Of a stretch of 64,000 nt of DNA, positions 1 to 27,635 are shown one piece after another. The notes below the pieces were generated by a model that worked only from the letters and a program-made list of their open reading frames with translations, was not told the origin of the DNA and did not search any database. Both the position numbers and the translations under genes were made by a program. How positions within the stretch are numbered: position 1 is the first letter of the stretch; each line of letters starts with the position of its first letter. The stretch comes from Tetrahymena thermophila SB210 (lineage: Eukaryota > Ciliophora > Oligohymenophorea > Hymenostomatida > Tetrahymenidae). The stretch is taken from assembly GCF_000189635.1 (NCBI RefSeq), contig NW_002476556.1:1-64000 (forward strand), in the 5' to 3' direction.

Positions 1-53
1 ATTTATTTGTGGAATGAAGTTCTTCTTATAAAAATTTATTTAGTATTTATTTA

Positions 54-2242
54 TTACTAGCTATTTATTTATTTGTATCGAAAAAGAAATTAGCCATATA
101 ATCTGAAATAATTTAAATTTTAAATTAAGCGTTTGTTAAATGTTACCGACTATATATTTTATTCATTCAGCTATTTAAATTTATTTTCCATAAATATCAA
201 TTACTCCTCTCTATAAGTAAAATATTTATTTTTTATATTTTCTTCTATCAAATTTGTCAATTATTTTACGTAAAGTCTCTATTCGTTCATTATCATATTA
301 GAATTTAAAAAGTTAACTTTTTAAATGAAACTATCTCAAACATTTACTTGCTATTTTATTATGAAATTTGTTTAATATCTATATCAACTCAAAATAAGTA
401 ATTACTTCCTATTTTATTTTCAATTTATAGACTGTGTATTAATTAACTGACCAAAAGCTCAAAAAATTTACAATCTGTATTGAAAATTAAATAATGTTTT
501 CTTTTATTGCAGTTTCAGTTATTTTTACATCCTTTTTTAATTATAGTTTGTTTAGACATATTTTTAAATCAATCAATAATCATCTTTTATTACCATCTAT
601 TTTAGATATTCATTTTTATTTAATATTTTATTGAACACATTTTAAAAATTAAATTAATTAAGAAAATTAATTTCTAAAGAAGTAAGCAATGAATAAATAA
701 AGAAATATTAAATGTACCCTCTATTTCCAATTTAAAGTTTGATTAGAATCTACTTTTAGCAAACTAAACCAAAATTAATTACATCCTATTTTATGTTAAA
801 TTAGAGTAAATATTTTTGATAAAAAATTGTATGAAAATATTACTATCTATTTATTATACAAATTAAAGCTAATTCAGAATATTCTCAACAAAATAAACTA
901 AAATTACATCCTGCATTTATTTTAATAATAACTTATAGCAAAATATTCAAGATAAAGTATATTTTATGAAATTACTTGCTATTTATTTTAAATTATTTGA
1001 AATAAATAAATAAATGAATAAACCAGGTATATTAGAAAAATAATTGTTACCTCCTAATTTAATTTAAAAATGAATAGATTGATTATTTTATAGACTTATT
1101 TCATTATATTTTTATCAAATCAATTTATTGAAATGTAATACTAGCTAAATTTATATTTATTATTAATTAATTAATTCAATATTTTTATAAAATAGCAATT
1201 TTTACTCGCTTTTGTATATGTTTTAGTAAATAAATCCTTAATCCTTATCTATTTATTTAACTCTTTTAAATCTCAAAAATTTACTAACTTTTTATTTATT
1301 TTTAGTAAAATAATTCATCAAATTGTCATAAAAATCTTTTTTTAAATAATTACACACTGTTTTTATGTCAAAATTAGTTAAATATCTTAATTCTTCAATT
1401 TATTTATTTAGTTATTTACAAGCTATTTTCATATAAATTTATTTATCAAAAATTAATCAAATTATTTTAATCATATTTTTTACATCCTATTTTTTATATT
1501 TTAATTAATTAATTAATTGAGCATCTTTTAGTCTACTAAAATATTTCAATCATATTTATTTATTACAAGCTTTTTTGAATATTTAAAATAATTAATTAAT
1601 TGAGCATCTAGGATTCTAAGTAAAATATTTCAATCATATTTATTTATTACTGGCTTTTTTGAATATTTAAAATAATTAATTAATTGAGCATCTAGGATTC
1701 TAAGTAAAATATTTCAATCATATTTATTTATTACCAACTTTTTTGAATATTTAAAATAATTAATTAGTTGAGCATCTTTGATTCTAAGTAAAAGATTTGA
1801 TTTATATTTATTAATTACTCCCTTTTATTAAAAAATATTTGAGAATTGAAAATCTAAAATAAAAGGTAATAAATACCTGCTATTTTAATATATAAAGGTA
1901 GTTGAGTATATCAGAATAGAAATTGCACTAAAATGTGTAAATTATTCAAAATTTACAGACTATTTTAAATTTGAAAGTGATTGAGTTAATTCGTTGAATG
2001 AGTAGAAATTAGAAAATCATACTATCTATTTATTTATATATTTATTTAAGGATTAATATTAACATTATCTTAACTGATTATCATAAAGTAAAAATCTTAC
2101 CCTCTATTATTGCATATGAAGAAGAAGTATAAGATTATAAAAATAATCAGAAACATTAGGAAAATACTTGCTGTATTGTATTATTTATTACAAAAAAGGA
2201 TCCATAATTTAATAACCATAAACATAATTGAGTCAAATACAT
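54..2242 (-). CDS. Candidate gene built of one-codon micro-exons (partial, runs off the left edge)
   Basis: No product is recognised. On the plus strand the motif TTAC (sometimes ATAC or GTAC), three variable bases, then CT plus a T-rich tail recurs at 54, 143, 343, 402, 468, 525, 590, 713, 779, 840, 904, 972, 1047, 1138, 1202, 1281, 1350, 1416, 1480, 1563, 1647, 1731, 1815, 1873, 1953, 2020, 2097, 2164 and 2237. Variants with 6 and about 9 variable bases occur at 201 and 266. Read on the minus strand each site is ...AG, NNN, GTA(A/T)...: a 3' splice site, a 3-nt exon and a 5' splice site. Implied introns are mostly 54-88 nt, a normal ciliate size; one is about 120. Intron interiors are mostly unrelated, so only splice-site-like bases recur. 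Minus-strand triplets from the right begin GAT, CAA, AGG, ATA, TCT, CAG. Two of three phases lack TGA, which is weak evidence. A decayed minisatellite or small-RNA locus is the alternative. Confidence 0.45.
1480..1818. repeat. 84-bp tandem units that differ at the central triplet
   Basis: Four successive units of 83-84 bp lie inside the micro-exon array. The 81 bases between the triplet at 1567-1569 and that at 1651-1653 are identical by eye to the 81 bases between 1651-1653 and 1735-1737. The triplets themselves are AAG, TGG and CAA on the plus strand, followed by TCC in the fourth, slightly diverged unit. Recent duplication of the whole unit is clear, yet all three variable positions changed each time. 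Confidence 0.85.
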
Positions 2243-2623
2243 CCTATTTTATAAATAATAGAAATCAAAAATCTCATTCTAAAAAATATTATTTAAGTTA
2301 TAAAAATATTTTAAAGACATTTGGCCTTCTTAGTTAACTTTTTATTTGAGAATTTTAGACACTAATTTAAAATAGTTAAAAGCTTAAAAAAAAAAAAACA
2401 CTGTTTAATTATCAAAATGACATTTTCAGTTCTGAATTAATCATTAAATAAAGTAACTATAAAATATTCTTTTGAATTTTGTTTTATAGAATACAAATAA
2501 GTAGGGTCCTAAAAAAATACTCTAGTTTTTCAAATTATGCTGTTATTTTTTTCACTTACTACTTTTTCTTAAAACTTTCTGTATTAATATCAATTTCGAA
2601 CCCTATAGTATTTATTATTTTAC

Positions 2624-2763
2624 TAAGTCAATATTTCTAACTCAAGAAACAATTTTGCGAGAATAGCTATAAACAAATTTTTGATTTTGAAAAATTTTAT
2701 TCTTTTTCTTTTTGTGCTTTCTAAAGAAAGTTATATGATTATATTTGAAATCATGCTTCTCAT
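2624..2763 (-). CDS. Possible 5' exon of the micro-exon gene
   Basis: On the minus strand an ATG at 2763-2761, preceded by an A-rich stretch (favoured around ciliate starts), opens a frame without TGA. The frame is Lys/Arg-rich and then hydrophobic, including the run KIKNLFIAILAKLFLELEIL. It continues for 46 codons plus two bases to a GTAAAAT donor-like site at 2623. I could not trace an unbroken splice path from here to the first clear micro-exon at 2237. Exon assignments in 2243-2623 are ambiguous, with several GTA and AG candidates. It may be unrelated to the array or not coding. Confidence 0.2.
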
Positions 2764-2943
2764 TTTTTGGGTTCCAAATAAGTAATGCTTAATAGGAATA
2801 GATAACTTAAAAAGGCTATTTGCTTTGTTTTGTTTTGCTTTTTGTATTTAGTTAAAGTAAAAGCTCATTTTTTAAATTAAACTTATTAAGATTTCCATTT
2901 CAAGATAAAATAAAAATTGCCAGTTTTATTCTTAGTCATAAAT

Positions 2944-2995
2944 CAAGTAATTTATTGTTTCTTCATACAAGTTGATGAAATAAATAAATTACTTG
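2944..2995. other. Inverted repeat (hairpin)
   Basis: The arms CAAGTAATTTATT...TTCAT (2944-2966) and ATGAA...AAATAAATTACTTG (2975-2995) pair over about 20 bases around an 8-base loop. It lies in the 2764-3398 spacer between the micro-exon array and the end of the kinase gene. The rest of that spacer holds nothing I recognise. It could shape the 3' end of the kinase transcript (stop at 3399) or be a relic of an inverted-repeat element. Confidence 0.5.
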
Positions 2996-3398
2996 GTTGG
3001 TTTTTTGCTAGCTTATTAATCAATCTTTATTTGCTCTTGATTTTGCTAATTATTCTGAACGTCTGATTTTTTTTCTATTTTTTGATTCTAGATTTAATCT
3101 TGGTGACCTTATACTGGCTATTTCTAGAAAACCTATTAAGAACTTGCTTATTAATTTGAAAAAAAAGGTTAAATATTCTATTTTTAATTTCCCTATTTCT
3201 CCTATTGATTTAACAAACCATCTATTACTTTTTACATTTCCTTTATTTATTAGTTTAATTCATTAATAACTGCCTCCTATTTTTCATTAAAAAATTAAAG
3301 CAGATTAAACAAATATCTATCTTTATTAAGTAATAAAATCAACATGTTTTTATTTTTATCCATCAATCTAAGAATTGAGATATTAGACTAATTCCTTT

Positions 3399-5287
3399 TC
3401 ATTTTTACTTTAAAAAAATTTATTTAATATTTTTATAAAAGGAATTAAAAAAGTACATGATTGGGTAAAATTTATTCTCAAAACCCTGAACATATTCAAT
3501 GTCTTATCTAAACTATCTGATGTATTACTGAGCTTCTGCATCATCCATAACTTCAATAAATTTGCTTTCTAAATCAAATTCAAAAGAAACAATTCCTTTT
3601 AATACTATTAAAGCTTCCTTAACCTTTAACCTCTCTCTTGGAATGAATTTTGTCAATCCATCAATTATGTATCGAAGCTATTTCTCATAAGCAAGGTTTT
3701 AGAAGTCTGCATTATATTGCAAAGGTTGGTGCTTGCTAAAAACTAAATTCGCTTAAAATCCTGAAATCATTGTATATAACAAATAACCTATTAACCAAAA
3801 AAAAAACATTTACAAGAGATACATCTATAAATTCATGAATGATTCATGTGTATATTTCAATTAATTACCTAAAGAACATGCTTCACTCTTCAAATTAATA
3901 TTATAAATTTTAATAATATTTATAAGTTTTTATCTATAAAATACTCTTTGACTTGGTTTTTACTTTACAGCTACTCCTAAGTTCTTGTATTCCTCAGAGT
4001 AAATATCAAATTTTGAGGGATCATAACATTCTGGAGCTTGGAATATAATATTTCCTTTCTTTAGATGAATTAATATAAATATAAATAAGTATCATAGCTT
4101 CATTTCTTATTTTGAGATGTAAAAAGGACTTTACATATTCATCAAAAGCATATCCAGATTATTAAGTGAGATTATCTGCAAATCCAAAATCAGCTTATTA
4201 ATTAATTAATTTTATTAAATTTAAGATTAGAATAATACAATTAATCAAATATCAATGAAAGATTTACAAACAACTGCGTTTCCATTGTAATCAATTAGGA
4301 TATTATCCATCTTCAGATCATTAACTAAGCATTTCTTAGAATGAATAAAGTAAAGACCCTCTGCAATATCCTTTGTGTATTTAATAGCAGATAACTCATT
4401 CAATCTTTAATTTTAGGTATTCTTAATAATATCACTCAATGTTCCTATTTTTTATCGAGATATTCCATTTAATTTATGCATTAAGAGATGGATGCTATAA
4501 AATTTTGAAGGTAATGAATGATATATACCTAAACATTCGGTAAGGACTAAGAAGATATAATCATTTCCTTCTATCTTGTGTAGAAGATTGGCTACATAAG
4601 GAGAGCCCTTGCATTAATTGAGCATTTAGATTTCTTACTAAACTTAACCTAAAATAACTTGATCAACATTGTCCTTTGAATCTTTAATAGGAATTCCTTT
4701 GATAGCATACCTCTTGTTAGTTGATTTTTCCTTTGCTAATACAACTAATCCTTGAGCTCCTTAACCCTAAAAATCTAAATTCATCATATCCTTTTTGCAA
4801 TAACTCGCTCTTCATATCTTTGTAAACCATATTTTAGGCTTTACTCAATGTAGGTTCATTAATGTCAGAAACTTTTGGGATTTTTAGAATAAATAATGAT
4901 TAATGCTGCTTATACTAAAAAATGTTTTGATTTATGGCTTTAAATTGATAGGAGGCCTTAAATTTAAAAAAATGATACTCTGATAGTTGAATATCATCAA
5001 ATAATTATGGAAATTAAAAAAATGCAATTTACTAAGCAACTCTTGTTTTTGAAGCATTTAAATACCCTTATCTGCATACATCTATCTAATTTTCTATCTA
5101 TTTTGGATATGCTGAAGTAGCTTCAACTTTACCATTTCGTGTTGCTATTGATTTTAGCTGATTTATTCCATTAGATCTACCTTATTTTACTAATTATTCT
5201 TTTACCTATTAATTTAACAAATTAATCAAATTATTAAAATATTATGAAGAAACAAAGAGCGACTTTAGTTTTTCTCAACGAATTCAT
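3399..5287 (-). CDS. Protein kinase-like gene, probable frameshift
   Basis: Read with TAA/TAG as Gln, the minus strand shows an ordered kinase domain. A Gly-rich loop GQGAQGLVVLA lies near 4740-4766 and the ATP lysine in YAIKGI near 4700. The helix-C glutamate is in QQEIQML near 4630 and the hinge is LVLTECL. The catalytic loop is LVNDLKMDNILID (4291-4327), followed by DFGFAD (4173-4190), APE in FQAPECY (4026-4043) and a C-lobe ending at TGA 3399-3401. At least four short introns fit; one is 4445-4528. Catalytic Asp, Lys and Asn are present, but the usual His-Arg of HRD is Val-Asn, so this is a non-RD kinase. About 150 residues rich in Gln and Lys precede the domain. The upstream frame reads YDEFRFLG and the next QGAQG lies one base out of phase at about 4763, so an extra base is likely. 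The start at 5287 is tentative. Substrate unknown. Confidence 0.75.
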
Positions 5288-8344: not shown

Positions 8345-8974
8345 ATAACAATAACTGTAACTTACTTTTTAAAGCAAAAAAAAGTAATTTTTAGATTTAA
8401 AAGCAAAAAAAAAAATATTTTCTATTTTTTAAAAATTAAAGCATTTTTTAAAAATAGGGATGAACAAACAGTTTTTATGGGTCTCTTTATAATTAATGAT
8501 AAAAATAAAGTATAAAATTATGCTAAAAATATAATCAATTATCATTTTTTATAAAAATTAATATAAATTACATTATCAATTTTAAACCTATTATAAAATA
8601 ATTTGTTTAAGAAATCATTAGTGCTATCAAATTCACTTAGTTTTAAATAAGAGGAGTCTGTCCTTCTTTATTTTGAATTGGATTTTAACTTGGACAAAAG
8701 AATATTACAGTTTACAGTAAATTAATTAGTTTATCGGAAAATTTCTGCTAACTTTTGATCAAAATAGAAAAAAGGGATTTCTAATAGAAATTAAAAAGTG
8801 ATAAGAAATTAATCTAATAATTCTTCTTCTGCAAACTTAATTGGTATAAAATAATCTTTGTTTTTATTGTTTAATTAGCAGAGAGTTGGTAATAACATAT
8901 AATCAATAATTCACTAATTCCAAAACAAATTAATTTAAAGTAAAAAAAATAAGTAAATAGGAAAAATAATTAAA
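8345..8974. promoter_or_regulatory. Upstream region of A1: degenerate 349-type repeat plus conserved 5' block
   Basis: 8345-8560 resembles part of the 349-bp tandem unit found at 21941-23302 (shared AAAGCAA, TATTTTCTATTTTTT and GTCTCTTTATA tracts). From 8566 to the A1 start lies a block shared with A2-A7. It begins AAATTACATTATCAATTTTA and contains AAGAAATYATTAGTGCTATC, TTTATCRGAAAATTTCTGC, AAAAGTGATAAGAAATTAAT and AGAGTTGGTAA. Its retention before seven paralogues suggests promoter and 5' UTR, although recent duplication alone could also explain it. Confidence 0.5.
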
Positions 8975-11900
8975 ATGTACTTTTTAAAATTTTATCTATT
9001 AATTTTAGCTTTCTCTGTTTTATAAACAAAATCATAATATGAATTAAATATGAAGGTAATTGGAGATGAAAATTGCGATAAGTATATTATATAATAGCTA
9101 AATCAATACAATATTAATTATTCTTGCTAAGGAAATAATATAATAGTAGAAAACTAAGATATAATAGCTTTTGAGTTAAATTTAAAAGATTCGAATATTT
9201 TTTCTTAGATAATAATTTAGGATGTCAAAGTTGTTAATATAAATAGTCTTAACTTAGAAAATCTTTAATCTTAAAATATGAATATGTTAATATCTTTTAA
9301 TAGAATATAAGATTTAAAAATAAAAAATATTAGTATTTCTAAGTCAATAAAGTCCTTTTAAAATTTAATTAATGCCTATAATATTAATTAAATTACTGTA
9401 GGCTAAATATTTCTAAAAGATCTTTTCATCAGATAAATTAGATAAGCAATTTCATTCACCTCTACAATTATTTAAATAGATTAAATAAGCTTAATTAACT
9501 CTTAAGTGTGTTAATTATATTTTTATGGTTATGATAAATTAATGATAAATAAGATTTAAAAGATACTAAATGCAAGTTTTATTCAATTTAATGAATGCTT
9601 TGTGGATTTTATTTTTCAATCACTTAATGAAGTACATATTTTGACCATATATATAGATATAAGTTATATTAATACCTCTCTTACGAAGATATTTAATACA
9701 TTTGCTAAATTTTAAATTTAAAGAAATGAATCTGGCGAAGGATCAATATTAATAAGTTTGATATAATTCAAATCATCTTTTGTTGCTTCATCATATATTG
9801 AAGTCATATAGTTTAATTAAAATATTTTATAAAATAATTTATTGATTATTGAATTGATTTATTAAAAAAATGATAGTAATAGCTCTTTATAATTAGATGT
9901 ATAATTTATAAAATATTTTAATATCTATAAAATATCTTTAGAAGGATTTTCTGACTCTATTTAATCTAATAACTATGAAAGTTTAATTAAATCTTTTAGT
10001 ACAGTATTTATTAATATTTATTCTATATCTGTGTTAAAAAGTGAAAATATAAATGGACCTATTATTTAATGCTTGAATTCTTAATATGTTGAAATAAAAA
10101 GTATGTCCTTATCAAATTTAATAATTTATTCTAGCTTTCTTGATTTAGAAAATATTTAATATTTGTCTTTCTATAATATTGATATAGTAAACACAACATT
10201 TTATGGACATTTGATAAATGCTTAATAAATTTTATCTTTTTCATTAAAATTTTTTAATATATAATAAATACTTATCAATTCAAAATCGCTAATTAATATA
10301 AAAAGTGTAGGCGATGGCATCTTTTAAAATATTTAACTTAAAAAAATAGACACAGACCAAAAATAATCTATAATTTTCTATATCGAATTAGAACAACAAT
10401 TAAAATAAAATAATATCACATTTTAAACAGTTGATGCAGATTTATTATCTAAAAGTAACTTATAATTCTTAACTTTAGATGGCTCGTATTATGAATTTTC
10501 TATGGAGTAATCTAAAATAATAAATGGTCTTCTATTACTTTTGGTGGTTGCTTACATTTTATTAACACTTTTAATACTAATTAATAGTAAAATATAAGGA
10601 TTTAGGATACTACATTTAAATAGTGCAGGAGCAATTATTTAGGGGGTGCTATTTCTGGGGTATCTAAAATTTGGTCATAACGTAACTATTTTATTGAGTG
10701 CAGTAGCTAAATAGGTGGTGTTATATATGCTGTTTAGGAGTTAAATAGTGATATAAATGAGACCTCATTTGAATAAAATAAAGGTTATTTAGCAGCTAAT
10801 ATAGCTAATAAATCTCCTTTAAAGTTAAAAATCTTAGAAATTTTAGAAATAAATTAAATGAATTCTAATGATGAAAATTTATTTACATAAATTAATTCAT
10901 ATTTGTTTCCTGGACTCACCTATATTATAAGATTATCTATAGAAGTAGATGGAGAATAGCATAATCAATACAAAAATAACAATAATTTTGGTAATCTCTA
11001 TTAACTTTTAGTTTCACCTTCATAAAATTTTATTTCTTAAACCCCTACTCAACTTTATTCTATCAACTTTCCCTTTATTTTATGGTCTGCAAGAGATATA
11101 TCTTAGTGGTAAGTAAGAAATAGAATTGGAAGCTATTTAGATTTATTTAGCCTAGCTTTATACTTTAAAAGAAAGTTAATATAAAATATATAATGGGTGT
11201 AAAGAGCAAGGAATGGAAAAAGTATATTTAGATAAATATTCAAGCACTCAATTCATGTGTTAATACTGTGAATAAATGAAGGTAAGCTACTATGGGGTAT
11301 GTCAATAATGTTAAGTTGAATATTTTTCATAATGTTATGGAAATTACTCTGAACTAAAATCATCATATTGGAGGTCAATATATTCAGTAGAGTCTTAAGA
11401 TATTTACTATTGTTCTAATAATCCCTCAAGTTGTTAAGGAGGTAAATTAAATTTATTTAAATTTGATTGATAATAAAATTATTTATTTAACTATAATATT
11501 TCTAAATAAAGGTAGTGGAATAGGAAATGAGCTTTGCTATGAAGGCCATGTAGGAGCCTAATGTTTGGACTGTGATCTTTATGGTGCTTATTGGAATGAA
11601 AGATTTTCTAATGTGGGTTTCTTTTAATGTGTAAAGTGTAGTTCAATATCTTCTAATACTATAAAAATTATAGTATTGCTAACTATTTTGATGGTTAGTC
11701 TACCATTTATTTTATATTCTACCTTGAAAAAGCTTAAAAATGAAATTCTAGCACTTTATTTATCTAAAATGGGTATTTTTTTCATTCGGAAAACATTGCA
11801 GCAATAGACATTGACTTCTACTTACATTAAGATTTTACTATTTCATACTTAAATTTATTTCATATCAAATTAATTCACCAAAGTGGATATACTTTCTACT

Positions 11901-12977
11901 TTATTTTAGTTCTAGTTTTTACTCTACAATCCCTTAAGCTCCTCTTTTCTCTCTTTAAACTGCTTAATTTCTCAGTATAAACCTGAATCAACTAACATAG
12001 GATACACTGAACTTCTTTTAACATTTATGATCCCAATATTTATTTGCTCATTAACAATTCTTGTGTCAATTTGTTTATTTATTTTAAAAAGAAAGCTATT
12101 TAGAAGGAGCCTATATATGTCTATCCTCACTTTTATATATATGTTTATGATAGTTTTTTACTCAATTCTATTAGAGAAAACGCTTAGTAGTTTCTTTTGT
12201 CTAAAACTTGACAAGGATAAATATTATTCTCTTATTGACCTAAGTTTGGAATGTGGAAACTCTCCAGAACTCTATAGAATATAATGTCTAAGCTTAGTGA
12301 TATTAATCTTATTTTTGGTAGTTTTTACATTTGTAGTCTTTGCAAAGCTAATTTAATCACGAAAGAGACTAAATAAAGTTAAAGTCATGTTTGCATTTGG
12401 GTTTTTATACATTGAATATAAAACAAAATTTTTCTATTGGGAGATGGTAAGAATTTTAGTGAAAAGCTTGATCATTTTATTATATGTGTGTTTGAAGTAA
12501 TATCCTTAGATTAGTCTCATTATGATTTCTATAACATTATTTTCTTATATTATGGCTTTAATAAGATTTAATCCTTTCATTTCAGCATTTTTAAATAATT
12601 TAGAAACAATATCAATAATAATTTCAAACATGATACTTCTTTCGTCTATAATGTATTTGCAGTAGAATTAGGATGAAGATAATAATTTTCAAGATTTTAG
12701 AGTTGTGTTTTACTTAATAATTTAGATATGTAACATGCTGTTTTTCTTTTATTGTATTTGGCTAGTAATAACGTCTTTTCTAGAAAAATAAATATAAAAA
12801 TTAAAAAAATGTATTAAATGGAGATGTATTTAAAGATTAAAATCTACAGATAATATGAAAATAAATAAAAATGTTAAAAAAATGATAGCATGTATGAAAT
12901 AAATGCAAATAAGTTAAAAATTAGATTATTCTTTACAACCCTTGTCACACTATGATTTATAAAATGATTTAGATTGA
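8975..12977 (+). pseudogene. A1: multi-pass surface protein paralogue with two frameshifts
   Basis: First member of the A family; the family layout is given under A5. The frame opens at ATG 8975 with signal peptide MYFLKFYLLILAFSVLQTKS and reads cleanly to about 10525. There one base is missing compared with A2-A7 (GGTCTTC instead of GGATCTTC). The shifted frame hits TGA at 10859-10861, leaving 628 codons. A second lesion at about 11103 lacks two bases (ATATCTTAGTGG versus ATATCTTTTAGTGG) and brings the frame back. The remainder, including the intron 11442-11511, Cys-rich module and membrane domain to TGA 12975-12977, is well preserved. Either a young pseudogene or two assembly errors; two independent shifts favour a pseudogene. 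Confidence 0.7.
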
Positions 12978-14551: not shown

Positions 14552-16613
14552 TTATTTAGAAATAATGTTTTAAAATAAGGTTTTAAGTGTTAGTAATCTA
14601 TTGGATTTTAATTTTTTATATTGAATTTGTCTGTGTTAAGGAAAGTCTTTTTTAATCAATTGTTTGAATTTTGATTAAATTTCTTAATTAAAAAATGAGT
14701 AAAGACCTATAAAAATCTGATTAGTTTTTTTCACCACAAAAATGAATTACATTAAACATATATATTATTTTTAATTAAATTTCAAAGATCTTTTCTACTC
14801 CTAATTAAATACGTCGAAATTACTCCAAAATGAATTGAATTTTTAATTAAAAATTAATTAAAAATAGACAAATTTCAAATTACATATTTTAATTCCAATT
14901 CAAAAATTAAACTTCAAATCTATTCTATTTCTTTATTAATTTCCTTTTCAAAGTGGAAATAGACTTGTTTATTAATTTAGTTCTAATAAGGCACTAAATA
15001 AAGGTTTAAGCCTTTACTGATATCAAATATATTCATTTTTTTTTAAAGTTTCTTTCAAAAATATTCAAATTCTTTCTAATTTAAAGTAATTAGAACTGAA
15101 TTATTGAAATATTTTTAAAAAAAACTAAAATTTTCTTTTAAATAGCATTTCATATTATTAATATGCCAAAGAATAAATTTTTGAAAGCAGTACAAATTTA
15201 TTTTTTACATGTCTGTCTTTTTAAATATTTAAATAAAAGCTTTTAAATAATAAAATTAAAAAAAATATTTGAAGAATTAAACAGAATAATAAATATTTAA
15301 AAAAAAGTTAAAGAAATATTCACTTACTATTAAAATATAAAGGGATATTTAAATAATGTTATTTAAAACTGATTATTTTTGAGATACTTTAAAAGTCATA
15401 AAAATAAATGTTAGAGATTTTTAATGGAAAAATTATATTATTTTGCTATCTTATTAAATATGCGATATTTAAAAAAATAAAGCATTTAGCCTGAGCTGGT
15501 TTTATATTAATTCATTATAAAATATTATTTTTATGCGTTTTTAGCTATTTTAAATTAACAATATAAATGTTTTTTTATTTATTTATTATAAAATATTGAT
15601 TTTGTGCGCTACTAGCTATTTTTAATTAAAATTCTTAAGCAATCAAAATACTTTAATTAATTCATACATAAAAACAGCTGGAATGTCTCAATTTATAAGT
15701 ATAATAATATAATATTTATCACCTATTTACTTTATAATAATACAATCAATATTATACAAATAGATTGATCTCAAACAAATAAAAATTTGTATACATTTTA
15801 ATATTTTATATAAGGCAATATCACTTCAATATTTAATTGGTAAATTATATTCATTTTATGTTAAATAATTTTGCATTTAAAATCAATCATTCTTTTTTAA
15901 CAATAGGCACTAACTAGACTAAAAATTTATGATTAATTTTATTTATATTTTGAGTATTAAAGTCTAAATACTTAAAATTTCTTTAAGTTTTGAATCTATC
16001 TGTTTAATTATTAATGTTTTCATATTCTAAATTTAATTTTATAAAACATAAAGAACTCAATAATTTTATATTTAAAATCAAATAAAAATTATTTAAGATA
16101 CATTTTTTTAAATTTAATCAAGCATGCTTAATTAATTTTAACATAAATTAATCTTGAAAAACTAATAAAATAGAAAATTATTTAACAATTTCCATTTTAT
16201 TAAGAACCTTAGAATGCCATCCATATTATCATTAAATTTATAAATAATAAATTTTTGCTAGTTCTATTTTAATAACTAAATATAACATATATTTTAATCA
16301 AAAGAATTTATTTATTCTAGAATTACAAATTTAAAAATCATAAAATATGATAAATATAAAAAAAATTAATTAGAAAATCCAGGAATTAAATTCTTGATTT
16401 CCTTCATCTATCTACAAGAATTTAAAGCCTGGAAATGAAATAAACATACAAGAATTAAATTTTTTGCTACTTTAATTATTTTTCATAATTTATTTATTCT
16501 GTCTATTATTTGTAATAATTAAATATTATTTAGAACTTAATTAAATTTTTTATTATTTTATAAATAAATTTTTAATTGACTATCAGCATAAAAAAATAAA
16601 GCTAAAAAAAAAA
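14552..16613. other. Long intergenic region with a hairpin
   Basis: About 2 kb of AT-rich DNA with no gene recognised. Two diverged copies of a block (ATTATAAAATATT ... TAGCTATTT) about 70 bases apart lie near 15511-15630. At 16377-16397 and 16415-16435 the arms CCAGGAATTAAATTCTTG and CAAGAATTTAAAGCCTGG form an imperfect hairpin with an 18-base loop, about 180 bases before the B1 start. The equivalent position before B2 lacks it. Confidence 0.5.
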
Positions 16614-18611
16614 ATGGAAGAAAAAAATAAGAGATTTGGAGATTTAAAAGAAGTAATAATATGCTTTTTATTCATTAATTATGATACAAAATCCTTACAT
16701 TATTAAAAGTTTTAAAAATCAAACTTAAGGAATATTACTCATCTCTAATTAGATTTAGGGTAAATATTTATTTATTCATTTACTTATTTTTTAATTAATT
16801 TTAAACAAATGAAAAATATAAGAGAAAGTTGTCTTTATTTATCATAAATTTAATGCATCTATTTATCAAATAAAAAACTTTATTTATTTGATTTTAATTA
16901 AAACATTATTTATCCAAAATAAAATTTGGAGAAAATTCAAAATAGCTCACTCAAATACTTTTTTATTAATAAAAGAAACAAGATAAAAGGAGATGAAGGA
17001 GCAAAAGATCTTGGTATATCTCTAAGTAAGTGCACTGAACTCACTAATTTAATTATTTATATTTAGTAAACTTTATTGGTTTTAACAAATATTATTCAAT
17101 TTATTTTATCTAAAATCTTAAATAGTTAAAAGAAGAGTTTTATTAAAATTAAATTATTTTTTTAAACAACTCTTTTACTATTTTACAAAACAAATCAAAA
17201 ATAAATATTTAAAAAATTCAAATACTTTATTTAACTATATTCATTAAAAGTATGAATGAAATCAAAAATGAAGGAGCATAAGCATTCGGCTTAGCTTTAG
17301 GATCTTGTAAAAAACTCATTGATTGTAAATTATGGATTTAGTAAATTAATTGAATTTATATTTTTATATCTATTTGTATTTTAATTTATTAGCTTTTTCA
17401 AAAATTTTTGAATTTAAAAGTGAAAATTAAATCGGAGATATAGGAGCGTCTGGTATAGCAGCAGGTTTGAGCAATTTTACCTAAATTACAAGTTTAGGTT
17501 TGAGTTTACTGTAAGTTAAATTTAATTTTATTCTGTTTTATGGCATTATAGAAAAAATTAATTTATAAAATATTTTTAAATTTAATAGAAAAAATGAAAT
17601 TGGTGATGAAGGTATTTTTGATATTGGGTTAGCCTTAAGTAAATGTAAGAATCTAATCAATTTATAACTATGGTTACAGTAAATAATTATTATTAAATTT
17701 ATAATATATTTTTATGTTGCTACTATTATACTTTACCTTCTTTATTTAAGACAAATATTTATTCTCTAAGTATGGAGGGAGGTTTTCAAATAATTTATAT
17801 ATTTTAATAATGAAATTTTTGTATTAAAAGTTATTAAAGAAATTTTTTTTACAAAAATATTAACTTTTTGAAATCCACTCAATAAAAATTTAATACTAAT
17901 TATTTTAATATAAAAAGCACAAATTAATTTGGTGATAAAGGCTTATCAGGCCTCCTAATAGGTTTGAATAGTTGTAATCAAATTAAGGATTTAGGTCTTA
18001 GCTTGAGGTATTTAATTATTTTTATTTTCAAATAATAAAAATAAATGAAAATAAAAAAAATGCTAAAATAGATTTTTATTAAATTATGATAATTTAATTT
18101 TTATTTTTGGTTTATTTTTATATTTAAAATTAATATAATAATAAAAAAAGTAAAAATAAAATTACTGATGAAGGGTATTTGAAAATGGACGAATGTCTAT
18201 CAAGTTTAGTAAATTTAACATCTTTGCTTTGTGTTTTCAAGTAGAATTATTTTATTTTCATTTTTGATGCTTTATCCAATAAATAATTAATTAGTGATAA
18301 TGAAAAATTACTCAAGTCGAGAGAAATGATGAATTGCAAAAATGTTAAAGTGCTTAGACTAAGTTTTTGGTAAAAGCAAACTTTTTTATTTTATATTTTT
18401 ACATCTCATAGTATTTTTTAGCTTATTCAAATTAAAAAATTTCATATACATCGTCAAGTTTAATTTTTTAATTGTATGCTTAAAATGTTTTCAAAATTAA
18501 TTTAAATAAAATTTTAAATATAGTTTATGCTCATCAGATGAAGAAGATAATAAACACTATAGAAAAGCTTTTAAAATCAAAAGGCTAGTTAAATTATCTT
18601 TATATTAATGA
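16614..18611 (+). CDS. B1: leucine-rich-repeat protein, one repeat per exon
   Basis: Nine exons, about 250 residues. Exon 1 (16614-16759, MEEKNKRFGDLKEVIICFLF) encodes an N-terminal cap. Exons 2-7 each carry one repeat of ribonuclease-inhibitor type, about 28-30 residues. They begin with N-x-I/F-x-D-x-G (NEIGDEG, NQIGDIG, NKITDEG) and end with LxxLxLxLx just before the donor. Exons 8-9 are a diverged cap, NDNEKLLKSREMMNCKNV and then CSSDEEDNKHYRKAFKIKRL, to TGA 18609-18611. Every intron I could phase interrupts codon position 2/3 (phase 2), so exons can be added or lost without breaking the frame. Introns are about 90-230 bases. It probably acts as a protein-binding scaffold; the partner is unknown. 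It is a close tandem duplicate of B2. Confidence 0.8.
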
Positions 18612-19356
18612 AATTATTTTCATTTATTAATAAATATTTATTTTTATTGTCTTTTATTCATTGCTATTTTTTTATTATAAATAATTTCTGTTGAATCTAA
18701 ACTTTTATGTTTGATTTTTCTTTTGAATTTTAACTTAATTTTTGATCAATAAATTTAAAAACTTAATATAAATTAAAATTACATATTCAATAAATATTTT
18801 TGAAGCAATTGTTTTATTCTTGCAATATTTTTTTTTCTTATTTAAATAGATAGAAGAGGTCTAACAGATCTTAAATTATAGTTTTATAAAATTTCCTCCA
18901 CCTTCTTTTTAAACTAAAAATGACTAAAATATTGAAGATTTATTTAAAATATAATTAGGAGAAATGAATAAGCAAAAATAATTGTTATCTTTATATTAAA
19001 TATTTATTTTTTTATTGTTATTAAGCTATTTATTAATTTGATTATTTTATTTTTTTTCAATTCGAAATTTAGTTTTTATTCATTTTTAGCTTTAAAAATA
19101 GATAAAATAAAAATAATTCACATACATTCTTGCACATACATAGTGACATGCACTCTAAATTACCCCTTTATTTAATTACTTATATATTATCATTATAAAT
19201 ATACAATAAATTTTTTAAAATAATTCAAAAATTTTTTATTTTTTAAATATTTTGGTATTTTCTTACATAATTATTAAGCTTAAAATTTATAAAATAAAAA
19301 TCTATTTATAAATATAAATTGATTATCACATAAAAAATTAAAGCGAAAAAAAAACA
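18612..19356. other. B1-B2 spacer with LRR exon relic
   Basis: Near 18846-18995 a stretch starting TAGAAGAGGTCTAACAGATC matches, in shorter form, the sequence 3' of B2, including ATAATTAGGAGAAATRAATAAG. It appears to be the remains of further 3' LRR exons. Otherwise AT-rich spacer. Confidence 0.4.
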
Positions 19357-21285
19357 ATGGAAGGATAAAATAAGAGATTCACAGATTTAGAAGAAGTAAT
19401 AATATGCTTTTTATTCATTAATTATGATATAAAATCTTTACATTATTAAAAGTTTAAAAAATCAAACTTAAGCAATATAACTCATCTCAAATTAGATTTA
19501 GGGTAAATATTTATTTATTCATTTACTTATTTTTTAATTAATTTTAAATAAATGAAAAATTAAAGAGAAAGTTGTCTGTCTTTATTTATCATAAATTTAA
19601 TGCATTTATTTATCAAATAAAAAACTTTATTTATTTGATTTTAATTAAAACATTATTTATCCAAAATAAAATTTGGAGAAGATTCTCAAAATAGCTCACT
19701 CGAATACTTTTTCATTAATAAAAGAAACCAGAAAATAGGTAATGAAGGAGCAAAAGCTCTTGGCATATCTCTAAGTAAGTGCACAGAACTCTCTAATTTA
19801 TTTATAAGTATTGGGTAAAGTTTACTCGTTTTAACAAATATTATTCAAATAATTTTATCTAAAATCTTAAAAAGTTAAAAGAAGAGTTTTATTAATATTA
19901 AATTATTTTTTTAGACAAATCTTTTACTATTTTATATAAATCAAAAATAAAATTCAAATACATTATTTAATTATATTCATTAAAAGTTTTAATGAAATCA
20001 AAAATGAAGGAGCATAAGCATTCGGTTTAGGTTTAAGATCTTGTAAAAAACTTATTGATTGTGAATTATGGGTTTAGTAAATTAATTGAATTTATATTTT
20101 TATATTTTTATTTTTTTATCACATATTATAATTTATTAGATTTTTCAAAAATTGTTTAATTTAAAAGTTATAATTAAATCGGAGATATAGGAGCGTCTGG
20201 TATAGCAGCAGGTTTGAGCAATTTTACCTAAATTAAATGTTTATGTTTGAGTTTACTGTAAGTTAAATTTATTATTATTCTGTTTTATGGCATTATAGAA
20301 AAAATTAATTTATAAAATATTTTTAAATTTAAAAGAGAAAATTAAATTGGTGATGAAGGTATTTTTGATATTGGGTTAGCCTTAAGCAAGTGTAAGAATC
20401 TAATCAATTTAAAACTATTGTTACAGTAATTATTGTTAAATTTATATTGATTTTTAAGACAAATATTTATTTTTTATATATAGCACTTTGCAATTTTAAA
20501 AAATAGTCATCGAAATCTATTTATTAGCGATGATTTGAAGATTTTTATTAAAGCAATTTTTTACAAAATTATTAGTTTTTGATATCCATTAAAAATGTAA
20601 TATAAATATTTAATTATTTTAATATAAAAAGCTCAAATTAATTTAGTGATAAAGGTTTAGAAGGTATCTTAATAGGTTTAAATAGTTGCAATCAAATTAA
20701 TAATTTAGGTATTAGTTTGAGGTATTTAATTATTATTATTTTCAAATAATAAAAAAAAATGTTAAAATAGATTTTGATTAATTAAAATAAATTAATATTA
20801 GATTTAGATTAAATTTTATATTTAATATTAGCATTTTTATAAAAAAAGTAATAATAAAATTACTGATGAAGGATATTTGAAAATGGATTAATGTCTATCA
20901 AGTTTAGCAAATTTAAGATCTTTGAATTGCATTTTCAAGTAGAATTATTTTTTTTCATTTATGATGCTTTATCCAATATATAATTAGTGATAATGAAAAA
21001 TTACTCAAGTCGAGAGAAATGTTGAATTGCAAAAATGTTTAAGTGTTGATACTAATTTATAAGTAAAAACTTTTTTATTTTATATTTTTATAGCTTATTC
21101 AAATTTAAAAATTCCATATACATCTTCAAGCTTAATATTTTAATTGTATATTTAAAATATTTTCAAAATAAATTAAATAAAATTTTAAATATAGTTTGTG
21201 CTCATCAGAGGAAGAACATAATAAACACTACATAAAAGCTTTAAAAATCAAAAGGCTAGTGAAATTATCATCTGTATAGATTTGA
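19357..21285 (+). CDS. B2: leucine-rich-repeat protein, tandem duplicate of B1
   Basis: Nine exons with the same boundaries and phase-2 introns as B1. The start is ATG 19357 (MEGQNKRFTDLEEVIICFLF) and the last exon ends at TGA 21283-21285. Repeats read NQKIGNEGAKALG, NEIKNEGAQAFG, NQIGDIGASGIA, NQIGDEGIFDIG, NQFSDKGLEGIL and NNKITDEGYLKM, each followed by a Leu-rich strand. Introns as well as exons remain alignable to B1, so the duplication is recent. The last exon contains CSSEEEHNKHYIKALKIKRL. No in-frame TGA was found, so it is likely functional. Its exact C-terminus is uncertain because B3 and B4 have an extra acidic exon that B1 and B2 seem to lack. Confidence 0.8.
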
Positions 21286-21522: not shown

Positions 21523-21940
21523 TAGAAGAGGTTAAACAGGGCTTATATAATAGTTAAATTAAATTTCCACCTGATTTTTCATAATTTTTATCAATTATTG
21601 TAAACTAAAAATTAATTATAAATGGCTAAATATTGAGGATTTATTTAGGATATAATTAGGAGAAATAAATAAGCAAAAATAATTGGTGTTACTTTAAGCA
21701 ATTATAAGTAACTTGATAATTTAGTGTAGTTTTTATATTAAATATTTATTTTTTTATTACTATTAAGCTATTTATTAATATAATTATTTTATTTTTTTCA
21801 ATTAGAAATTTTGTTTTATTTTATTTTTAATTTATATTTAAAAAATAAAAAGATATATTTTTATAATTTTAAATATATATAGTATTAAATAAGTCACAAA
21901 GGAGCAAAGCAATTTACCTATTTATAGATGATTGTAAGTA
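21523..21940 (+). pseudogene. LRR exon relics 3' of B2
   Basis: The stretch around 21658-21735 translates in part as IGVTLSNYKQLDNLVQ, the pattern of an LRR second half. 21870-21930 contains a frame-broken N-K-S...G-A-K-Q-like start. Neither has a clean splice context. B2 probably once had more repeats, or another LRR gene followed it. 21286-21522 is featureless. Confidence 0.4.
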
Positions 21941-23302
21941 TTAGTAGATGACAAAATTAATTTGACGCAGTGTATTATTTGATATTTGTTAAATTTCTAT
22001 CAAATATATAGTGATATTTTATACAGTCAAATAGCAATTTAAATTTCTAAATAAAATTTGGAGGGAAATTTTTAAAGTAACAAAAAGCAATTTTAGTTTA
22101 TAAAAGCAAGAAAAAGCAATATTTTCTATTTTTTTTTAATTAAAGCATTTATTAAAAATGTTTGAGAAATTTTATCAGTCTCTTTAAATTATAAGTGACA
22201 AAAACAAAGAATTATTTTAAAAAGCAATTAAAAATTATACTAAAAGTAAAATCAATATTGAGAAAAATTATGAATATAAATTTTTTTATTAGTAGATGAC
22301 AAAATACATTTGACGTAGTGTATTATTTGATATTTGTTCAATTTTAATCAAATAATTAGTGATATTTTATACCACCAAATAGCAATTTAAATTTCTAAAT
22401 AAAATTTGCAGTGAAAATTTTAAAGTAACAAAAAGCAATTTTAGTTTATAAAAGCAAGAAAAAGCAATATTTTCTATTTTTTTTTAAATTAAAGTATTTA
22501 TTAAAAATATTTGAGAAATTTTATCAGTCTCTTTATATTATAAGTGACAAAAACAAAGAATTATTTTAGAAAGCAATTAAAAATTTTACTAAAAGTAAAA
22601 TCAACATTGAGAAAAATAATGAATATAAATTTTTTTATTAGTAGATGACAAAATTCATTTGACGTAATGTATTATTTGATATTTGTTCAATTTTAATCAA
22701 ATAATTAGTGATATTTTATACCACCAAATAGCAATTTAAATTTCTAAATAAAATTTGCAGGGAAATTTTTAAAGTAACAAAAAGCAATTTTAGTTTTTAA
22801 AAGCAAGAAAAAGAAATATTTTCTATTTTTTTTTAAATTAAAGTATTTATTAAAAATGCAGGAGAAATTTTTATCAGTCTCTTTATATTATAAGCGGCAA
22901 AAACAAAGAATTTTATTAGAAAGAAATTAAAGATTAAGCTAAAAATAAAATCAACATTGAGAAAAATTATGAATATAAAATTTTTTATTAGTAGATGACA
23001 AAATTCATTTGACGTATTGTATTATTTGATATTTGTTCAATTTTAATCAAATAATTAGTGATATTTTATACCACTAAATAGCAATTTAAATTTCTAAATA
23101 AAATTTGCAGTGAAATTTTTAAAGTAACAAAAAGCAATTTTAGTTTATAAAAGCAAGAAAAAGCAATATTTTCTATTTTTTTTTAAATTAAAGTATTTAT
23201 TAAAAATGAAGGAGAAATTTTTATCAGTCTCTTTATATTATAAGCGGCAAAAACAAAGAATTTTATTAGAAAGAAATTAAAGATTAAGCTAAAAATAAAA
23301 TC
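21941..23302. repeat. Four-copy 349-bp tandem repeat
   Basis: Units begin with TTAGTAGATGACAAAA at 21941, 22289, 22638 and 22988, a period of 348-350. The last unit ends near 23302, where the sequence passes into the conserved block upstream of A2. Units share GACGYANTGTATTATTTGAT, AAAAGCAATTTTAGTTT and TCAGTCTCTTTATATTATAAG. No coding frame persists in the unit. A degenerate partial copy lies upstream of A1 (8345-8560). Confidence 0.9.
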
Positions 23303-23329
23303 TACAATTAGAGTTAAATGCCATTTCTT

Positions 23330-23639
23330 AAATTACATTATCGATTTTAAATATATTATAAATTAACTTGTTTAAGAAATTATTAGTGCTATTAAACCAT
23401 TAAATTTTATATAGGAGTCTCTAATAATCAAAATAGAAAAAGGGTTTTCAAATAGAAATTAAAGAGTGATAAAAGTTTAATCTAATAATTTTTCTTCTAT
23501 AAAATTAATTGGTATAAAAATCTTTGTTTTATTGTTTAATTAGCACAGAGTTGGTAAAAATTTATAATAATTAATTAATTCAAAAACAAATTAATTAAAA
23601 ATAAAAAAATAAGTAAATAGGAAAAAGAAAAAAATTAAA
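23330..23639 (+). promoter_or_regulatory. Conserved 5' block of A2
   Basis: Shorter version of the block before A1. It lacks the segment between the AGGAGTCT region and the AAAGAGTGATAA region that carries TTTATCAGAAAATTTCTGC in other copies, so that segment is dispensable or A2 is regulated differently. Confidence 0.4.
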
Positions 23640-26600
23640 ATGAACTTTTTTAGATTTTATCTAATAATTTTAGTTTTCTTTGTTTAACAAACAAAATCAT
23701 AAGATGAATTAAATATGAAGGTGATTGGAGATGAAAATTGTGATAAATCTGTAATTTAATAGCTAAATGAATAAAATATTATATATTTTTGCTAAGAAAA
23801 TAATATAATGATAGGAAACTAAGATAAAATAGCTTTTGATTTAAATTTAAAAGATTAGAATCTTTTTTCTAGGATAATTATCTATAATATCAAAGTAGCT
23901 AGTATAAATAACCTTATCTTAGAAAATATATAATTTTATTAAAATGATGCATTCATATATTTTAATTAAATATAAGATTTAGAGATGTTAAATATAAGTA
24001 TTTCTAAGTCTATGAAGTCCTTTTATATGTTATTTAATTCAGATTATATTACTTCAATTACTATAAAATAAATTATTCTAAAAGATATTTTCATCCAGAA
24101 AATTAAATTCTAATCTTATTTAATTTACATAAATTAAATAAGCTTAATTAACTCTTAAATCTGTTCACTAAATCTTATTGGGGATGGTAAATTAGCAATA
24201 AAAAATTATTAAAAGATATTGAATGCAAGTTTTACTCAATTTGAATTTACCGAATGTCCCGATTCTGTTTTTTAATCAAAATAAGAAATAAATATTGAGA
24301 GCATAAATTTAGATTTAAGCTATATTAATATCTCTCCTACTTAAATATTTAATGTTTTAAGTTTTTTTGTGAATTCTGTTTAAGGAAAAATAAAAATAGA
24401 TTTGATATCATACTAGTCATCTTTTGTCACAAATTCATACATAGAAGTAATATAGTTCAATTCAGATTTACTGACAAAATAAAGGGCTAATGTAGAGATT
24501 GATAAATTGATTTATTAAAATAATGATAGTAATAGCTCTTTGTATTTAGATGTAAAATCATTATAATCTTTTTTTATAAATGAATTAATTTTAGAAGGAC
24601 TTTCTGGCCCTATTTAATATAGTAGATATCAAAGTTTATTTAAAATTTTTAATACTGGAATTATTACTATTTGGTTAATAACTATTAAAAATTGTGAAAA
24701 TATAAAAGGACCTATTTTTTAAGTCCTTTATTCTTAAGAAATTAAAACAAAATTACTTATCTTAGAAAATTCAGTCATTTATTCTAGCTTTATAGTTTTG
24801 GAAGTTATTATCGATTTGACAATCGAAAATTTTTAAATAAGAAACATAAAATTTTATGGATATTTGATAAATGCATAATAAATTTATAATTTATATTTTA
24901 GATTTTTTATATTATCAGAATCACTTATCAATTCAAAATCGTTATTTAATCTAAAAAATATAAACAGAAGCGTGTTTGGAGAATTTGCTATTGTAAATGT
25001 AAACACAGACCAAAAATAATCTATGATTTTCTATTATGTATTAGAGCCAGAATTAATCATGAAAACAATACTTTTTAGATCTTCTTAGGCAAATTTATAA
25101 ACTGAAAATAACTTATAATTCTTAACATTAGATGGCTCTAACTATCATTTTACAATGTCCAAATCTAAAATAATAAATGGATCTTCTATTAACTTTGGTG
25201 GTTGCTTAAATTTTATTAACACTTTTGATACTATTTAAAATTAAGTAATAGAAATTTGGGGAACTACATTTTAATAATGCAGGAGCAATTATTTAGGAGG
25301 TGCTATTTCTGGGACATCTTTTATTGGGATTTACAATTATTTTATTGAATGCAGTAGCTAAATAGGTGGTGCTATATATGTTGTTTAGGGGTTAAATAGT
25401 GATATAGATTAAGATCATAATAAATTTTAATAAAATAAAGCTTATTTAGCTGCAAATACATTTAATAAATCTCCTTTAAAGTTAAAAATCTTAGAAATTT
25501 TAGAAATAAATTAAATTAATTTTAATGATAAAAATTTATTTACATAAACTAATTAATATTTGTATCCTGGATTGACCTATGTTATTAGATTATCTCTAGA
25601 AGTAGATGGTGAATAGCATAACGAATACACAAATAACAATAATTTTGGTAATCTCTATTAACTTCTAGTTTCACCTTCATAAAATTTTATTTCTTAAACC
25701 CCGAATCAACTTTATTCTATCAACTTTCCCTTTATTTTATGGTCTGCAAAAGATATATCCTTTAGTGGTAAGTAAGAAATAGAATTGGAAGCTATTTAGA
25801 TTTATTTAGCCTAGCTTTATACTTTAAAAGAAAGTTAATATAAAGTATATAATGGCTGTAAAGAACAAGGAATGGAAAAAGTATATTTAGATAAATATTC
25901 AAGAACTTAGTTCATATGTTAATACTGTGAATAAATGAAGGTAAGCTACTATGGAGTATGTCAATAATGTTAAGTTGAATATTTTTAATAATGTTATGGA
26001 AATTACTCTGAGCTAAAATCATCATATTGGAGATCAATATATTCAGCAGAGCCTTAAGATATTTACTATTGTTCTAATAATCCTTCAAGTTGCTAAGGAG
26101 GTAAATTAAATTTATTTAAATTTCATTATTAATAACTTATTTATTAAACAAAAATATTTCCAAATAAAGGTAGTGGAATAGGAAATGAACTTTGCTATGA
26201 AGGTCATGTAGGAGCCTAATGTTTGGACTGTGATCTTTATGGTACTTATTGGAATGAAAGATTTTCTAAAGAGGGTTTCTTTTAATGTGTAAAGTGTAGT
26301 TCAATATCTTCTAATACTATAAAAATTATAGTATTGTTAACTATTTTGATGCTTAGTCTACCATTTATTTTATATTCAACCTTTAAAAAGCTTAAAAATG
26401 AAATTCTTGCACTTTATTTATCTAAAATGGGTATTTTTTTCATTCGGAAAACATTGCAGTAATAGACATTGACTTCTACTTACATTAAGATTTTACTATT
26501 TCATACTTAAATTTATTTCATATCAAATTAATTCACCAAAGTGAATATACTTTCTACTTTATTTAATTTCTAGTTCTTATTCTACAATCCCTTAAGCTCC

Positions 26601-27635
26601 TCCTTCCTCTCTTTAAACTGCTTAATTTCTCAGTATAAACCTGAATCAACTAATATAGGATACACTGAACTTCTTTTAACATTTATAATCCCAATATTTA
26701 TTTGCTCATTAACAATTATTGTGTCTTTTTGTATATTTATTCTAAAAAGAAAGCTATTCATAAGGAGCCTATATATGTCTATCCTAACTTTTATATATAT
26801 GTTTATGATAGTTTTTTACTCAATTCTATTAGAGAAAACGCTTAGTAGTTTCTTTTGTTTAAAACTTGACAAGGATAAATATTATTCTCTTATTGACCTA
26901 AGCTTGGAATGTGGAAACTCTTCAGAACTCTATAAAATATAATGCCTAAGTTTAGTGATATTAATCTTATTTTTGGTAGTTTTCCCATTTGTAGTATTTG
27001 CAAAGCTAATTTAATCACGAAAGAGACTAAATAAAGTTAAAGTCAAATTTACTTTTGGGTTTTTATACATTGAATATAAAACAAAATTTTTCTATTGGGA
27101 GATGGTAAGAATTTTTGTGAAAAGCTTGATTATTTTATTTTATGTGTATTTGAAGTAATATCCTTAGATTAGTCTCACTACGATTTCTATAATATTATTT
27201 TGTTATGTTATGGCTTTAAAAAGCTTTAATCCTTTCATCTCATCATTTTTAAATAATTTAGAAATAATATCAACAATAATTTCAAACATGATACTTCTCT
27301 CATCTACAATGTATTTGCAGTAGAATTAGAATGGAGATAATAATTTTCAAGATTTTAAGATAGCGTTATACTTAATAATTTAGTTATGTAACATGATGTT
27401 TTTCTTTTATTGCATTTGGCTAATAATAATGTCTTTTCTAGAAAAATACATATAAAAATTATAAAAATGTCTTAAATGGAGATGTATTTAAAGATTAAAA
27501 TCTACAGATAATATGAAAATAAATAAAAATGTAAAAAAAATGATAATATGTATGAAAAAAATGCAAATAAATTAAAAATTAGACGATTCTTTACAACTCT
27601 TGTTATCCTATGAATTATAAAATGATTTAGATTGA
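23640..27635 (+). CDS. A2: multi-pass surface protein paralogue, intact
   Basis: Reads without TGA from ATG 23640 to TGA 27633-27635 after removal of one 69-nt intron (26101-26169), giving 1,308 residues. The signal peptide is MNFFRFYLIILVFFVQQTKS. The N-terminal half diverges most from A3-A7, including unique stretches in place of otherwise shared segments near 24400-25100. The Pmp-like motifs are NYLGGAISGTSF and QIGGAIYVV. The Cys-rich module and membrane domain are nearly the same as in A1, including CSSISSNTIKIIVLLTILML. It follows the 349-bp repeat array directly and is separated from A3 by a spacer with an LRR relic. Confidence 0.85.

Follow-up and report, generated by a model that had tools for sequence, protein, structure and literature searches.

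Introduction

What is encoded at the start of this stretch of Tetrahymena thermophila DNA, where sites of the form AG, three variable bases and GTA follow one another on one strand at short intervals? The stretch analysed (the window) comprises positions 1-64000 of contig C20 in an assembly of 101.0 Mb and 445 contigs. The original prediction proposed a gene of single-codon micro-exons. Our analysis makes it very probable that the array forms the 3' coding region of a protein kinase gene, composed of consecutive 3-nt exons and phase-2 spliceosomal introns that split each codon, the splicing being predicted from the DNA.

The array at the start of the window

Window positions 1-2400 hold 29 AG-NNN-GTA sites on the minus strand and 0 on the plus strand, close to the figure of about 30 minus-strand sites first given. 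The remaining part of the 64-kb window holds 21 on the minus strand and 42 on the plus strand. The spacing is 57-91 bases, apart from an interval of 124 bases between sites 591 and 715 and one of 201 bases from 144 to 345; the regular spacing and the first of these intervals had been described correctly, but that interval is not the single exception it was taken for. Two exons of other length lie inside the 201-base interval, AGAGGA (205-210) and AGACTTTAC (270-278), and they align with AAAGGA and AGACATCAC of a paralogue on contig C7, in agreement with the variant sites of about 6 and 9 bases that had been described. The statement that interval interiors are mostly dissimilar holds in part but fails at 1459-1826, where an 84-base tandem repeat is present in 4.4 copies with 87% matches. 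Because the array runs into the contig start it is truncated, and since no telomere repeat was seen at window 1-60 the contig ends may be assembly breaks. The predicted exons are as follows.

58..2243, minus: array of micro-exons, 31 in all as predicted, 29 being 3 nt long and the other two 6 and 9 nt; intron lengths 54-121 nt; truncated at the contig start
2241..2243, minus: micro-exon 1, GAT
2168..2170, minus: micro-exon 2, CAA
2101..2103, minus: micro-exon 3, AGG
2023..2025, minus: micro-exon 4, ATA
1957..1959, minus: micro-exon 5, TCT
1877..1879, minus: micro-exon 6, CAG
1819..1821, minus: micro-exon 7, GGA
1735..1737, minus: micro-exon 8, TTG, in the block of similar 84-nt units
1651..1653, minus: micro-exon 9, CCA, in the 84-nt-unit block
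1567..1569, minus: micro-exon 10, CTT, in the 84-nt-unit block
1484..1486, minus: micro-exon 11, GAT
1420..1422, minus: micro-exon 12, CTT
1354..1356, minus: micro-exon 13, TGT
1285..1287, minus: micro-exon 14, TTA
1206..1208, minus: micro-exon 15, CGA
1142..1144, minus: micro-exon 16, CTA, without C7 counterpart in the alignment
1051..1053, minus: micro-exon 17, GAG
976..978, minus: micro-exon 18, CAA
908..910, minus: micro-exon 19, GAT
844..846, minus: micro-exon 20, ATA
783..785, minus: micro-exon 21, GAT
718..720, minus: micro-exon 22, AGG
594..596, minus: micro-exon 23, ATG, follows the one 121-nt intron
529..531, minus: micro-exon 24, GAT
472..474, minus: micro-exon 25, ATT
406..408, minus: micro-exon 26, GAA
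348..350, minus: micro-exon 27, CAA
270..278, minus: micro-exon 28, 9 nt, AGACTTTAC, aligned with C7 AGACATCAC
205..210, minus: micro-exon 29, 6 nt, AGAGGA, aligned with C7 AAAGGA
147..149, minus: micro-exon 30, TCG
58..60, minus: micro-exon 31, CTA

Elsewhere in the window, positions 21939-23306 carry about 3.9 copies of a 350-nt tandem unit (94% matches) with no obvious domain by eye. On the plus strand, long open frames occur at 8759-12977, 23013-27632, 56393-58897 and other places; to the eye, some of them look membrane-like and rich in Cys. Frames with NQIGDIGASGIAAGLSNFTQITSL-type repeats, resembling leucine-rich repeats (LRR) of the RNI type and cut by short introns, lie at 16400-20500. 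A Pfam search with five window frames, the LRR-like one included, gave no match (for the LRR-like frame, none at 0.001). A search of a plasmid collection gave no match. The genome contains a match to ciliate telomerase RNA of 161.9 bits, which together with the TAA and TAG inside kinase matches (see below) indicates Tetrahymena or a near relative; this RNA appears to be the same as that of T. thermophila.

Exon lengths and splice signals across the genome

Three-site chains of the pattern numbered 569+739 genome-wide, compared with 124+119 for a reversed-pattern control, and a stricter chain gave 99+243 compared with 0+0. Chained triplets total 604, in 21 regions on 19 contigs; these regions include C4, C13 and C10, not shown to adjoin a kinase, and the array on C116 lies outside the 604. 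For the TGA, codon-usage, intron-pair and similarity tests below, a chain was a run of three or more AG-NNN-GTA sites with a spacing of 40-100 nt, and no other sites were used. In 10 array regions AG-N(k)-GTA was found 409 times in sense and 18 times in antisense for k=3, and every other k from 0 to 30 gave 13-43 sense hits.

Exon chains were built by dynamic programming for 11 arrays, every length other than 3 being charged the same cost, and 391 of the 444 exons were 3 nt long; the splice-site matrices, used here and for further arrays (C213, C88, C13, C10 and C116 among them), had been trained on 3-nt sites. The other 53 exons reached up to 21 nt; their length was 3n in 33 cases, 3n+1 in 8 and 3n+2 in 12, and two of the 33 (18 nt each, in C26 and C50) are probably mis-joined 3-nt exons.

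For 25 of the window introns, no AG occurs in the 450 nt that precede the acceptors, compared with 37 in the 994 nt of intron body. In a set of 450 introns (lengths 46-97, median 68) the values are 0.16 and 4.42 per 100 nt, and G is generally scarce before acceptors (0.021 vs 0.098, window introns). We read this AG-free zone as the requirement of a spliceosomal acceptor. The idea of tandem 3-nt coding exons with short introns thus draws sequence-level support from the AG exclusion and the exon lengths, and also from the frame, the stop codons and the paralogues described below.

The composition of the triplets is uneven: TAG, GTA, GTC, TAC, ACC, CTC, GCC and GCG are absent among the 604, and TAA occurs twice. 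TAA, TAG and triplets starting with GT may be so rare because competing splice sites are avoided.

The array adjoins a protein kinase gene

The array had been proposed as a gene of its own. Ordinary exons were instead read upstream of it on the same strand, and the window array is, on this reading, the 3' part of a protein kinase gene with 28 family matches in the genome.

3457..4790, minus: protein kinase domain, several ordinary exons and introns, hand-joined from a three-frame reading, limits approximate
3457-3787, minus: last kinase exon, ends in phase 2 (..ENKFYPI), frame checked
3344..3407, minus: ordinary 64-nt exon KNEKELVQYLNSQIDGQKQKH, phase 2 at start, phase 0 at end
2993..3276, minus: 284-nt exon, Q/E-rich, coiled-coil-like, ends in phase 2 at the donor AA, then GTAATTTA
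2244..2992, minus: 749-nt stretch from the last long exon to micro-exon 1, a single long intron or introns plus unrecognised exons

The hand-joined window kinase matched Pfam PF00069 (Pkinase) with an E value of 3.8e-34 and 118.7 bits, the gathering cut-off being 31.7. Counterparts of the 64-nt exon are present on C7, C213, C26, C50, C56 and C29, and on C26 and C29 ordinary protein kinase exons matching the minus-strand gene of the window lie upstream of the arrays on the same strand. A micro-exon chain was looked for in window 2244-2992 and none was found; this stretch is about 250 nt longer than its equivalent in C7 and C213.

The 28 places in the genome were found as matches to a 75-residue piece of the window kinase, and TAA and TAG occur inside kinase matches. 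Downstream DNA was examined for 19 of the 28, and an array was found at 17 (C20, C7, C213, C26 twice, C29, C50, C56, C9, C415, C88, C422, C419, C274, C205, C161 and C195), those of C415 and C161 being partly N and that of C88 weak, with 8 chained triplets and AG-NNN-GTA 16 times in sense and 5 in antisense. At the remaining two, the downstream DNA is N on C42 (2372 of 2700 bases) and the contig ends on C319. Sixteen of the 28 matches lie at most 6 kb from a contig end, with the array side toward that end. C42:2373-2700 is a second copy of window 3375-3702 with 99% identity. Pfam searches with five tail proteins gave no match for four and two weak matches (E 0.14 and 0.15) for one, none of them LRR.

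The exons at 3457-3787, 3344-3407 and 2993-3276 join in one open frame with two bases over, and therefore the next intron would be in phase 2, presuming that 2244-2992 contains no further exon or 3n exons only. Phase 2 is found on C7 and C213 at the same donor as that of the window 284-nt exon, and by our own reading of the sequence the C26 and C56 arrays are also entered in phase 2. As the triplets are codon-sized but in phase 2, each codon would be split 2+1. On C50 and C29 the donor entering the array is without GT, so some copies may be broken.

Paralogues and the state of the window copy

A partner of the window array is situated where contig C7 ends, and C213 carries a third copy. Between the window and C7, 28 of 87 triplet bases differ, 188 of 1873 in intron interiors and 2 of 143 in AG/GTA. 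The predicted joined readings are IKGYLRDCHLIFVYDQSKIQIGWILNKDFTEDR for the window, RKGYLKDYSSHYDVYNSKKWIGSIQKQDITKDL for C7 and KGYLQDGYGCYWVYDCRKEWIGKIWEQYITKDHQNYMK for C213.

The window could hold a decayed or silent copy of a real gene family, which would be compatible with the main reading and which we consider unlikely. The fast evolution without synonymous excess (see below), the cut by the contig start and the 749-nt stretch without clear exon before the array would all agree with decay; against it, AG and GT are retained at 31 of 31 predicted exons, lengths are still 3n and the phase-2 frame is open despite the triplet differences from C7.

Intron families and the origin of the arrays

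The introns fall into families, one of which, of 69 nt, comprises 206 members (at least 80% match) spread over 12 regions. The exact 30-nt start of the 69-nt intron occurs 152 times in the genome, 150 of them after AG and three bases. A copy of this start at C167:639386-639420, after AG-CAA, is isolated among the matches listed. Folding of the intron as a hairpin was no better than in shuffles (z 0.80), and imperfect inverted ends were seen by eye.

Flanking triplets of intron pairs within a region differ by 0.67-0.74 per base at any intron identity. Beside 108 pairs of identical introns from 16 regions (67 pairs from C26 and 28 from C56a) the triplets differ by 0.69 and 0.67 per base, the random value being 0.696. 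Because triplets next to identical introns differ at about the random level, the introns appear to have been copied or homogenised largely without the codons, and we favour insertion or intron-to-intron conversion as the origin of the array introns. If new introns inserted at a constant distance from a phase-2 intron already in place, the exact one-codon step would follow. Tentatively, and somewhat short of an even chance, an intron family may propagate by one-codon steps, after the 2nd base of each successive codon of the kinase tail whatever the codon; the spliceosome would then have to remove tens of introns serially around 3-nt exons, and tails would diversify codon by codon.

It is doubtful that the arrays arose instead by plain tandem duplication of exon plus intron units with codons diverging later, an alternative to this origin and not to the splicing. 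The array at C116:1-1650 would fit it: introns of two types, 60 and 64 nt long, alternate there, GAA/AGA triplets are repeated and the phase-2 reading is KEKDYLKEEEKKEQQMNEQL; its triplets are partly co-duplicated, with a divergence of 0.43-0.54, below random. The 84-nt tandem block of the window would also agree with duplication, as would whole triplets identical beside identical introns in 6.5% and 10.2% of pairs (4.0% expected) and a 5' triplet divergence of 0.33 in the four intron pairs that rare variants held in common mark as closest. However, the near-random triplets beside the 108 identical-intron pairs argue against it, and 52 pairs sharing rare intron variants still show divergences of 0.60 and 0.65.

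The reading frame of the arrays

Read in phase 2, the 604 triplets of the 21 regions contain 0 internal TGA (shuffling the order of the triplets gives P 0.0006; this and the P value below treat related triplets and pairs as independent). The same triplets give 17 TGA in phase 0 (7 of 21 regions) and 23 in phase 1 (12 of 21). Only three phase-2 TGAs were found, each at the final junction of an array chain (C26, C50 and C56b), and they are plausibly stop codons. The avoidance is confined to neighbouring exons, as expected if every exon is joined in order. Exon skipping as a generator of diversity found no support, TGA not being avoided at skip junctions (10 vs 6.9 at i+2). Differences between paralogues are concentrated in phase-2 codons (90 codons hit compared with 100.1 under the null, P 0.0014) and show no clustering in other frames, the test covering 7 of the 10 aligned arrays of the synonymous test. 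Those 10 arrays gave no synonymous excess in phase 2 (6 vs 10.2 expected) and 23 vs 17.7 in phase 1; both tests omit those codons of the 84-nt block that cannot be aligned.

For C26 (two copies), C50 and C195 the pairwise scores sum to 616.8 in phase 2, compared with 448.4 and 453.8 in phases 0 and 1. The phase-2 tails of this group have no internal stops, the phase-0 readings all contain TGA, and C195 is likewise stop-free in phase 1. The tail predicted in phase 2 is IGYIKDEDWRMMMFYEKKDWKKQIGKVYIGKHDDDLDFQTGKYFWEEYECEYELF and then a stop for C50, and IGWIKWDDWLNEKMMIFYEKKDWKKQIGKAYHSKQLIIDEMEMEDNDYQEIIPDACYECQYELF and then a stop for C26; that of C195 has FYEK and YECEYQLF in common with them. 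The predicted proteins are conserved in this group, with the motifs I(G)(W/Y)IK..DW and FYE, and YEC.Y(E/Q)LF where the end is reached. The sequence GATTGG is interrupted by an intron after GATTG in C26 copy 2, C50, C195 and C56 and is continuous in C26 copy 1, C274 and C419; thus what one copy would read after splicing, another reads without an intron. The predicted C29 tail has a hydrophobic stretch, ILKITGLVCLIIGVVVGYKVA. A PDB search with the C50 tail gave as best match an engineered protein (E 6.4e-4) with no stretch passing alone, which we took as chance.

The original prediction of single-codon exons corresponds to spliced micro-exons in phase 0, one whole codon each. The exons are codon-sized, but the best evidence is for phase-2 introns with each codon straddling an intron, and phase 0 is highly improbable. 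The window trio C20, C7 and C213 speaks for it: the summed similarity of these three, 195 in phase 0 compared with 174 and 175 in phases 2 and 1, would by itself favour phase 0. The window array itself is without TGA in phase 0, and C13 and C10 read about as well in phase 0 as in phase 2. A codon-usage log-likelihood test did not favour phase 2 (z 0.04) and found the triplets non-random as codons in phase 0 (z 6.0, against a different null of column shuffles and with non-independent triplets). Phase 2 alone, however, is stop-free in all three members of the trio: C7 has one TGA in phase 0, and C20 and C213 contain stops in phase 1. With the 17 in-frame TGAs noted above, TGA would have to be sense, and TGA triplets in phase 0 are common to C26, C50 and C195; the lower similarity of that group in phase 0 and the upstream exons that end in phase 2 also argue against it.

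A DNA-level or satellite structure (recombination, excision or a packaging motif) that merely resembles splice sites could account for tandem units, near-identical 69-nt sequences and the many arrays at contig ends, but has next to no probability in view of the strand bias, the AG exclusion zone, the 3n exon lengths, the frame of the adjoining kinase exons and the stop codons at array ends.

Comparison with known systems

No report of tandem 3-nt exons was found in the open literature among the matches listed, in line with the earlier expectation that such a run would be new. The micro-exon genes of schistosomes contain tandem symmetric micro-exons of about 6-36 nt and keep the frame on skipping. 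Like them, the arrays would code largely in tandem symmetric micro-exons, but their exons are nearly all 3 nt long, each codon would be split and they lie behind a kinase domain: 391 of 444 predicted tail exons are 3 nt and 33 of the 53 others 3n, the kinase half is in ordinary exons, and the splicing here is predicted. Introners, or introner-like mobile introns, are many near-identical introns at many sites. The families described here resemble them in the same respect (206 members in 12 regions; 152 exact 30-nt starts), whereas 150 of the 152 copies stand after AG plus 3 nt, at exact one-codon steps. At recursive splicing (ratchet) sites an acceptor is followed almost at once by a donor, leaving a zero-nt exon; the array acceptor likewise nearly abuts a donor and sequential removal is likely, but 3 nt would be retained.

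Drosophila homothorax has a single 3-nt micro-exon, which the excerpted text of PMC7392893 presents as one alternative exon in a normal gene. It shows that a 3-nt exon can be spliced, and the present arrays would have dozens in succession. Tetrahymena itself has LRR arrays of 90-bp exons, described in the excerpt of PMC6564038 as fixed 3n tandem exons with more than 98% phase-2 introns, rapidly expanded and enriched in subtelomeric and pericentromeric regions. The arrays studied here share with them the kind of genome, the tandem 3n exons and, on our reading, the phase-2 introns, although trio similarity and codon usage favour phase 0 on that last point. They differ in that their 3-nt exons are found in kinase tails with no LRR, and the repeated part is the introns, not the codons. 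The excerpt of PMC3274533 has the word 'microexon' once, as a TopHat option.

Discussion

In the proposed gene structure, exons of 3 nt, occasionally 6, 9, 12 or 15, would alternate with phase-2 introns of about 50-100 nt, and each codon would consist of two bases, an intron and a third base. The spliced mRNA would extend the kinase frame into a fast-evolving tail. Since two spliceosomes cannot share a 3-nt exon, the introns would have to leave singly, and from established splicing biology we expect sequential removal, one by one. Each removal would add three bases to the growing mRNA and expose the next GTA donor. The skipping of one exon would keep the frame, given that almost every exon is 3n long and the introns are in phase 2. 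The tail may serve as a variable interaction region behind the kinase and its coiled-coil-like linker.

Standard annotation and RNA-seq aligners have difficulty in recognising such genes, which may therefore be missed elsewhere. If the proposed structure is true, the exons of these genes reach the lower size limit and an intron interrupts each codon; the genes would then put to a direct test the models of how exons and introns are defined, of sequential splicing and of the minimum length of an exon. They would also be a natural experiment on intron gain, because identical introns separate unrelated codons at exact 3-nt steps.
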